This document shows, piece after piece, positions 5,901 to 54,804 of a stretch of 60,000 nucleotides of DNA (position 1 is the stretch's first letter; every line of letters starts with the position of its first letter). The DNA is from Bolinopsis microptera (taxonomy: Eukaryota; Ctenophora; Tentaculata; Lobata; Bolinopsidae): contig NC_087083.1 of NCBI RefSeq assembly GCF_026151205.1, positions 14,384,944 to 14,444,943 of the forward strand, in the 5' to 3' direction. A model generated the notes under the pieces. That model did not search any database. It had not been told where the DNA came from and worked only from the letters and a program-made list of their open reading frames with translations. Made by a program: the position numbers and the translations under genes.

Positions 5901-8900
5901 ATCGCATCAAAAAATATCCATCCTAACCGAAGATACAGCCGATTTAAATATAAAACACTTTAAACACAACATAGTAACAACAAAACCGATCAAAATGACG
6001 TTAAAACAATCTTTGCACGTGCACGTGCGCATTAAAACACCGTTGCTATGGAACGTTTTGGTTGTTACCTAAATTCATATTTTTCGTTTGTTTTGCACGT
6101 GGGTGGTCGTACATACAGACATTCTACATCAGAAATAATTCTCTGAATTATAGTAGAGATTAGGGTCATCATTTGGAAACCCCCTCAGCTATCTCAGATA
6201 GTATCTGATTACGTAATATGTGAACGACCCTTTATACTAATTTTACTGGGCCATGCTCAGCCTGTCTGCTGTCATTTCGCCTAATCTCTATTCGGGATAT
6301 GTTTATGATTAATATGAACATAATATTTTGAGGTCCCCAGGTAAGCTAATTTGTAATTGATCCTAGCTAGCGCTAACAGTAACTGCGCGCCGACGAGTGA
6401 TATCGCAAATATTTAAAACCAATACTTTGAGATGGGGATCGATCACATATAACGTAATCAGCTGAGGGGGAGGGGGTTTCTGGCCAGTGCTGGCTAGCGT
6501 TGGCTAGCGCTGGTTAGTGCTAGCCAGCGCTGGCTGACGAGTAATATCGCAAGTTTATGATTTTGATACATTGCGCTGGCCAGCGCTAGCTGACGAGTAA
6601 TATCGCAAGTATATGATTTTGATACATTGCGCTGGCCAGCGCTGGCTAGCGCTGGCCAGCGCTGGCTGACGGGTAATATCGCAAGTATATGATTTTGATA
6701 CATTGCGCTGGTTAGCGCTGGCCAGCGCTGGCTGACGAGTAATATCGCAAGTATATGATTTTGATACATTGCGCTGGCCAGCGCTGGCCAGCGCAATACT
6801 TTGAGATGGGGATCGATCACATATAACGTAATCAGCTGAGGGGGAGGGGGTTTCTGGCCAGTGCTGGCCAGCGATGGCCAGCGCTGGCTAGCGCTGGCTA
6901 GCGCTGGCCAGCGCTGGCCAGCGCTGGATAGCGCTGGATAGCGCTGGCCAGCGCTGGATAGCGCTGGATAGCGCTGGCCAGCGCTGGTTAGCGCTGGCTA
7001 GCGTTGGCTAGCGCTGGCCAGCGCTGGCTAGCGCTGGATAGCGCTGGCTAGCGCTGGTTAGCGCTAGCTGACGAATAATATCGCAAAAATGTTGCGCTGG
7101 CTATCGATGGCCAGCGCTGGCTATCGCTTAGCGCTGGCCAGCGCTGGCCAGCGCTAGTTGTCGCTATCCAGCGCTATTTGTCGCGAAAATTATCGAAAAT
7201 TTATCGAAATTTATCAAAAATTGATACTTTGCGCTGGTTAGCGCTGGATAGCGCTGGCCAGCGCTGGCCAGCGCTAGCTAGCGCTGGATAGCGACAACAA
7301 GCGCTGGCCAGCGCTAGTTGTCGCCATCCAGCGCTAGTTGTCGCTATCCAGCGCTAGCCAGCGCTGGCCAGCGCGCTATTTATCAAACTGTTTTCTGCGA
7401 TGGCCAGTTGCGCTGGCCATCGCAAACTATCGCGTGCGACAGTGTCGCATAGCCAGCGACAACTAGCGCTGGATAGCGACAACCAGCGCTGGATGGCGAC
7501 AACTAGCGCTGGATGGCGACAACTAGCGCTGGATAGCGACAATTGTCGAACAAATATATTTTGCGCTGGCCAGCGTTATCCAGCGCTGGATAGCGACAAC
7601 TAGCGCTGGATGGCGACAACTAGCGCTGGATAGCGCTAGTTGTCGCCATCCAGCGCTAGTTGTCGCGTTTTGACTATCGCAAAAGAACCAATTACGGGAC
7701 AAATATATATCTAAACATTCTGCAATTTAAAGAATCTCTCTGTAAAGTTTGTTTAAGAAGAGTAGCAGATATTGCACGTTTTGAGTAAACTTGGTAGTAT
7801 TTCATTCTTATCTTACTATCACTTTATTGAGGTATCATGTTATCGTTTACTTATGGACAGTGCTTTAATTACACGAACAAATATTGAACAATTAATCAAT
7901 TCATACGGTTATCTGAGTCTATAAAAATGGTCGCAAAATTAATTATTGCACGCAGTTATAAACACTAATCTAATTAAGTTTTATATTTCTAATATCATTT
8001 AGTTTTATCTACTTAATAATATCTAGAATGTGCACCTAATCATGTTTCATCTCATTTTAAAGAGGTATTGAATAAAATGATAAACAGTAAACTGCACAGT
8101 AGTACAGTGCGCTTCTCATCCCACATAGCTGATACGATGTTGTAAATTAATATGCGTATATTTACACTTCCTAATCCCTAGAGGATAAGGCAATACTAAT
8201 ACATGTAATAACTACAAGGTAGGTAATGGTACAGGGGAGGGGTGTACAGCAGTACAGCAACAGTTTGTCGGTCACGTGGTCACGTGGTCACCGATCAACG
8301 TCACGCGATATTTGTTAAAATGTAATAAAAGTCACGTGATGATTTTGTTAAAATGTAATAAAAGTTCTCTATGTTCAATTTCAGATTTTGAAGATTTGAC
8401 AGCCATTGCTCTTGATAGAGTTACATGTCTACATCTTTTGAGACAGCTGCCAATAAAGTTCTTAGGATTGTTGTTTTCAGATATTTTGAACTTAGATATG
8501 GTTTATAATAATAATTAATAATATTAATAATAATAATAATTAATAATATTAATAATAACAATAATTTAATAAAGTACCTTCTCTCCAATCTCAGTATTGT
8601 CTCCATTAGGAAGTATCTGAAGGTCAGTCTCCAGAGCACAGCTCGTTATTACTTCCTTATAATAACACTTGTTCCAAGCAGCCCCAAATAGGATGTTGTT
8701 TTTTAGGGAGTCGTTTAGAACCCAGGATACTTGGGGTACGTAGCTTACTGAACCCTGCCAATAGGGAACATTATAATAACCCAGGATACTTGGGGTACGT
8801 AGCTTACTGAACCCTGCCAATAGGGAACATTATAATAACCCAGGATACTTGGGGTACGTAGCTTACTGAACCCTGCCAATAGGGAACATTATAATAACCC

Positions 8901-54804: not shown

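Follow-up and report, generated by a model that had tools for sequence, protein, structure and literature searches.

Introduction

Tandem repeats that run across 5′ or 3′ exon/intron boundaries have been described from lancelets under the name "mirages". They are reported from Adh3 and from the globin genes BflGb6 and BflGb9, with units of 10–72 bp in Adh3 and about 150–160 bp in the globins (PMC3087553), and also from PGBD5 and TnC (PMC3902484). Duplicated splice signals, an unstable copy number, and regular splicing are reported for these genes (PMC3087553, PMC3902484). In the open-access literature examined, the name was not found for animals other than lancelets. Tandem duplication is also a standard model for the origin of introns; potato RdRp, vertebrate ATP2A1, and 24-bp repeats of fission yeast are cited as cases in which a tandem duplication that included splice signals gave rise to a new intron (PMC4974935).

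Here we analyze a 60 kb window of a ctenophore genome, in which an ABC transporter gene and a kinesin gene, both on the minus strand, carry arrays of this kind, together with a sample of exons from the same assembly. A first-pass annotation of the window had held that no described mechanism predicts such arrays. For the phenomenon as such this does not apply, as lancelet genes show it as mirages, although in lancelets, too, the origin is described as unclear. The class is already known; the present analysis extends it to a genome distant from that of lancelets and to large copy numbers, and adds an estimate of frequency against a null model.

Materials and methods

The window (C12:14384944–14444943) belongs to an assembly of 264.65 Mb in 232 contigs. 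Its arrays were detected by TRF and the junctions were then read base by base; exon junctions were placed from homology, GT/AG and phase. For the genome sample, 335 exons from six protein families were chosen by Pfam match, blind to repeats, and examined with 450-bp flanks. The first sample consisted of kinesin, TCP1 and myosin (204 exons), and the replication sets of dynein (65 exons) and of SNF2 plus ABC membrane domains (66 exons). The matches used were 102/109 for kinesin (five from the window itself and two single-exon matches were excluded), 29/35 for TCP1, 73/73 for myosin, 65/67 for dynein, 39/40 for SNF2, and 27/36 for the ABC membrane domain. Omitted matches outside the kinesins were, as judged by eye, long single-exon matches or isolated fragments; PF00005 matches were mostly single-exon and were not used. 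The counts of arrays at exon edges cover the 500 non-terminal edges of the 335 exons. Under the null model, the seed of each array was placed randomly in its own intron with exon overlap allowed, conditioned on intron and unit size.

Results and discussion

Arrays that span splice junctions in two genes

Judged from conserved motifs, from which the family and subfamily names were read, the transporter would be ABCC-like and the kinesin a kinesin-14-like (KIFC1-type) motor; the kinesin motor exons of the window match Pfam PF00225. Six arrays of these two genes have a repeat unit that contains a real splice site together with 3–67 exon bases:

8578..8754, minus strand: ABC transporter exon 20 (e20), 177 nt; NBD1 region after Walker A
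8719..10649, minus strand: array spanning the e20 acceptor, 59-bp unit, 32.8 copies; first exon base 8754
12433..13025, minus strand: array spanning the e16 acceptor, 40-bp unit, 14.8 copies; first exon base 12455
43428..45173, minus strand: array spanning the K9 donor, 33-bp unit, about 52 copies; first intron base 45147
45643..48553, minus strand: array at the K8 acceptor, 26-bp unit, 112 copies; first exon base 45645
51839..53260, minus strand: array spanning the K3 acceptor, 71-bp unit, 20 copies; first exon base 51905
53950..54696, minus strand: array spanning the K1 donor, 60-bp unit, 12.4 copies; first intron base 54679

The e20 unit consists of 23 intron nt, ending in TATTGGCAG, and 36 exon nt, and the e16 unit of 17 intron nt and 23 exon nt. 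The K1 unit comprises 17 exon nt followed by GTATTAACAT..., the K3 unit 67 exon nt and four intron nt (ACAG), and the K9 unit 26 exon nt (NTSLSELG) and GTAAGTG. The K8 unit holds a complete acceptor and three exon nt; this case is the weakest of the six, as three exon bases could match by chance. TRF and junction reading thus bear out the first-pass annotation in all six units, and its exon lengths stand for e20, e16, K8 and K9 (claimed as 19–29 nt), while K1 has 17 rather than 15 nt and K3 67 instead of about 60 nt. The K1 donor array also contains a 320-aa open frame (53906–54868), in which the exon frame stays open through every 20-residue repeat, so that read-through would be possible in principle.

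The same annotation had considered the fixed arrangement, with every array on the intron side and the genuine junction touching the exon, too consistent for random slippage. This argument fails, because any tandem duplication of a junction necessarily has this topology as long as the reading frame is preserved. Duplication at an acceptor places two copies of the intron tail plus exon head in a row, ahead of the rest of the exon, with donors as the mirror image. Only one site then lies beside the old exon, and the intronic position of the array and the exon-touching genuine junction follow automatically. Moreover, the genuine boundary was placed by frame and homology as the copy adjoining the exon, which makes the observation true by construction. 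What can be tested is how often such arrays occur.

Six further arrays of both genes only abut a junction, at 6–25 nt from the exon, and a seventh lies about 10 nt away:

12227..12337, minus strand: array at the e16 donor, 36-bp unit; 19 nt away, not spanning
13970..14006, minus strand: array at the e14 acceptor, 9-bp unit, 4.1 copies; 13 nt away
48801..48891, minus strand: array at the K7 donor, 17-bp unit; 7 nt inside the donor
49249..49786, minus strand: array at the K6 acceptor, 30-bp unit; ends 6 nt before the exon
50105..50340, minus strand: array at the K5 acceptor, 18-bp unit holding GTAAGT; ends 25 nt before the exon
51503..51747, minus strand: array at the K3 donor, 32-bp unit; 22 nt inside the donor
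54815..55086, minus strand: array at the presumed K1 acceptor, 12/23-bp unit; ends about 10 nt before it

Other repeats and elements

Some arrays with differing unit lengths in unrelated genes have common cores, ACGTGAC or TGACGTCA (10992–11705, 13687–13755 and 48801–48891 in the window, and the sampled loci L062 and L092). A second group with common GGTAAC / GTTACTA comprises L013, L022, L100 and L032. Mirrored blocks of 10/20-bp GCGCTGGCCA-type repeats at 3713–4897 and 6480–7635 look like the long, inverted termini of a single element; mirrored TRF rows on opposite strands with equal length and score are 3713–3893 / 7455–7635 and 3974–4117 / 7231–7374. At the other end of the window (55318–60000), a 32-bp array (TGAGCCTGCCCAGTACAAATAGAATACC...) ends at 56014 and a similar unit resumes in the same orientation at 59777. 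The two are separated by short TTTTTGTCCG / AAACGGACAA repeats and (GGA)n-like DNA rich in purines, about 3.1 kb in all, possibly an insertion into the array. Long open frames at 23825–24358, 32451–33299 and 40972–41649 resemble, by eye, remnants of mobile elements.

A paralogue of the transporter as control

A paralogue of the transporter (L099) lies at C12:14898900–14907900. Seven DNA blocks could be aligned, five of which are 95.9–98.4% and two 86.6 and 90.4% identical, and exon 20 has 98.3% DNA identity. The repeat units are the same or nearly the same in both genes and the copy numbers differ, with 32.8 copies in the window and 59.5 in the paralogue for e20, 14.8 and 10.8 for e16, and 42/29 and 3.1/5.1 for two more arrays. 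The 9-bp array at e14 has 4.1 copies in the window and 91, by TRF, in the paralogue, whose array contains an N run. Copy-number instability, a defining property of mirages, was thus found between the two genes. One stretch of the window does not align to the paralogue, where the array runs to about 12 nt from the e19 donor:

10650..10762, no strand: stretch from the e20 array to the e19 donor; about 81 nt of non-array sequence (10650–10730), followed by a partial array unit

Over 248 codons of five exons, dN was 0.002 and dS 0.10 (dN/dS 0.02), and the sixth transporter exon searched had no match in the paralogue. Both copies are therefore under strong constraint while their arrays change fast. 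The same arrays in other copy numbers, along with this low dN/dS, show that the arrays are volatile and tolerated, and their seeds are older than the duplication of the transporter. The low dN/dS may also lend indirect support to regular splicing of the mRNA despite the extra copies.

Recurrence in other genes and proposed origin

Of the 51 strong arrays near the 500 sampled edges, ten span a splice junction after inspection. Inspection confirmed junction-spanning donor units at seven loci (L064, L029, L027, L018, L036, L111 and L103) and acceptor units at four (L032, L033, L020 and L023); the L023 array lies at a terminal edge and hence outside the counts, and L103 is marginal among the ten with only 2 nt of intron inside the unit. 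Automated spanning calls at L077 and L013 were dropped after inspection, which reduced the number from 12 to ten. The array of L064 has 12 units with no differences between copies. Three loci have only two copies (L018, 38 bp; L036, 53 bp; L103, 55 bp), with 1, 1 and 0 nt in common at the break, respectively, and we infer that these represent the first step of array formation. The recurrent process that the first-pass annotation had suggested, which duplicates exon/intron boundaries and lets the copies expand into introns, is accordingly found again in other genes.

The length of the unit is no multiple of three in 11 of the 17 spanning arrays, is one in three (60, 33 and 48), and is uncertain in three (L027, L020 and L111). 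Splicing at a different copy would thus shift the reading frame in most cases. For the same reason we rejected an interpretation as in-frame protein repeats, although the unit length is divisible by three in K1 and K9. Another candidate, a seeded array distinguishing the kinesin paralogue L015 from L016/L017, was rejected as well, as the extra length of the gap (about 1,050 instead of about 100 bp) has the appearance of a mobile element. The insertion, from about position 1192 of L016 to about position 375 of L017, has inverted ends (GGCAACTTGTACGAACACCGATGGGACAG) and carries TTGTCTTA-type repeats. Of two kinesin paralogues that are almost identical, one contains it, whereas L015 lacks it, and the alignments on either side overlap by 9 bp, which resembles a target-site duplication.

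The arrays are probably mirage-type minisatellites, that is, short tandem duplications across exon ends that expanded and are spliced out via the exon-proximal site. Such an array would start when a short segment (about 20–70 bp) straddling an exon/intron boundary is duplicated in tandem at a break that shows little or no microhomology. Fill-in of staggered breaks is a process that needs little homology and is a candidate for this first duplication. The duplicate would bring a second, identical splice site, and if the site beside the rest of the exon stayed in use, the extra copy would be intronic and harmless. Slippage or unequal exchange could then grow or shrink the array, add tens of copies, and lengthen ordinary introns. 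Under exon definition, the site that gives the shortest exon is favored. The exon-proximal site would win on these grounds and is presumably the one spliced.

Frequency against random seeding

Random seeding predicts 5.1 spanning arrays among the 51 with a TRF score of 80 or more, compared to the ten observed (p = 0.015), and 3.6 among the 36 stronger arrays (score 130), of which again ten span a junction (p = 0.0007); several of the sampled genes are mutually paralogous, and the counts are therefore not fully independent. At score 80, the spanning arrays by family (expected numbers in brackets) were 7/23 in kinesins (2.26), 2/3 in dyneins (0.95), 1/18 in myosins (0.71), 0/2 in TCP1 (0.31) and 0/5 in ABC (0.84), and no array was found at the SNF2 edges at this score.

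The ends of arrays showed a related pattern. At score 80 or more, 21 ends lay in the 30,445 positions within 30 nt of an exon edge versus 27 in the 123,573 positions beyond (500 edges; rate ratio 3.2, p = 0.00014). In total, 24 arrays were located at or near an edge compared to 12.0 expected under random seeding (p = 2e-5), where the rough visibility correction that enters the spanning counts and the class-split end counts is absent from this test, and long-unit arrays far from an edge are harder to detect within a 450-bp flank. The excess was found in kinesins (11/23 vs. 5.2 at score 80; 10/19 vs. 4.6 at score 130) and in the other genes (13/28 vs. 6.9, p = 0.0017; 7/17 vs. 3.1, p = 0.011). 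A bias toward exon edges beyond chance is likely, because spanning arrays are in excess in kinesins (7 vs. 2.3) and array ends near edges are in excess outside kinesins, too. Checked on 335 exons, the enrichment at boundaries that the annotation had anticipated holds for array ends, which are about twofold over the null in kinesins and others, whereas the excess of spanning arrays is only 2–3-fold and mostly in the kinesins.

These numbers would fit a refinement of the mirage-type reading, in which duplications start preferentially at or near junctions, for example through co-transcriptional breaks or filled-in staggered nicks. We propose it tentatively, as possible but somewhat short of probable, since other counts speak against it. 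Outside the kinesins, spanning arrays numbered 3 vs. 2.8 expected at score 80 and 3 vs. 1.5 at score 130. The rate ratio in the band 1–60 nt past the edge, a plain overlap, was 1.7 (p = 0.11) at score 80 and 2.2 (p = 0.04) at score 130. In the replication sets, which are too small to decide (eight arrays at score 80), three ends were near and three beyond (p = 0.11), and at score 130 the numbers were one and two (p = 0.5). The dynein set contained too few arrays to bear on the excess of at least threefold predicted before its analysis; with a strict junction caller at score 50 it showed no excess (2 in 4,332 positions near vs. 10 in 16,775 beyond). For the SNF2 and ABC set, a ratio above 1 had been predicted beforehand; this was borne out at score 80, with two ends near and three beyond (p = 0.26), but not at score 130, with none near and two beyond. 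Furthermore, arrays could come to lie beside exons when plain intron sequence is deleted. The more far-reaching idea that junctions are true hotspots of duplication in this lineage, and that rows of dozens of intact, identical sites are kept as the splicing machinery ranks strictly by distance to the exon, appears rather doubtful to us. If it were true, these genes would serve as a natural experiment on exon definition in an animal lineage that branched off early.

Introns probably lengthened rather than newly gained

Without their arrays, four kinesin introns would retain 171 of 918 bp (K1), 216 of 1,786 bp (K2–K3), 254 of 3,253 bp (K7–K8) and 98 of 1,818 bp (K9–K10), which would amount to a 5- to 19-fold lengthening. 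For comparison, the distances from one sampled exon match to the next (248 gaps, some of which skip unmatched exons) have quartiles of 161, 308 and 1,026 bp. Intron gain by tandem duplication (the Rogers model), in which an exonic segment is duplicated and the array itself is the new intron, would agree with units that are mostly exonic (67/71 nt in K3, 30/35 in L029 and 26/33 in K9) and with intron 19 of the transporter paralogue, which apart from about 12 nt at the donor consists entirely of array. It is nevertheless improbable, since the four kinesin introns keep 98–254 bp of other sequence and their own opposite splice site and therefore seem older than their arrays.

Decoy splice sites

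In 12 arrays, none of the 718 splice-dinucleotide (GT/AG) positions was changed compared to 251 of 14,617 other positions. Decay of the decoy sites, which would have been a sign of selection against them, was thus not seen in these arrays. The decoys are not decayed, and a purely neutral reading does not strongly predict this. One could suppose that selection maintains decoy sites or longer introns, for instance as a means of adjusting splicing. However, variants spread by homogenization, so that a count of distinct variants is fairer, and this gave 0/82 at splice dinucleotides with 3.3 expected. A control with random dinucleotides yielded P = 0.026 for zero changes, or 0.07 without the paralogue arrays. 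The decoy sites are perhaps conserved, with weak significance. As copy number also varies up to about 20-fold between the paralogues, we see little likelihood in a selected feature.

That dispersed satellite families were inserted at junctions, or that the arrays are artefacts of the assembly, is scarcely credible even though the listed TRF arrays cover about 23.4 of the 60 kb of the window and a stretch of the paralogue's 9-bp array reads N, because the exon bases within the units belong to the host gene, the arrays recur at two separate places of the assembly, and the e20 and K8 units are of local origin, with DNA searches (which skip very common words) matching the e20 unit only to its own locus and the paralogue and placing the K8 unit at one candidate place, its own locus.

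Comparison with known systems

With mirage-type minisatellites as the preferred explanation, the mirage phenomenon would reach past lancelets to a ctenophore. The arrays show a route to 5- to 19-fold intron growth, partly from exon-derived DNA, and rows of up to 112 identical splice sites offer a direct in vivo test of site ranking. As in lancelet mirages, the units span the exon/intron boundary, splice signals are duplicated, and the copy number is unstable. The arrays differ from those in lancelets by up to 112 copies, lengths of up to 3.5 kb, and their occurrence in a non-chordate genome. With the intron-gain cases of potato RdRp, ATP2A1 and fission yeast they have in common that the duplication includes splice signals, but in the window a minimum of four introns seem to have existed already and to have been lengthened. 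Length instability and near-identical units are also seen in ordinary intronic minisatellites, whereas the units described here are set apart by their exon bases and an entire splice site.
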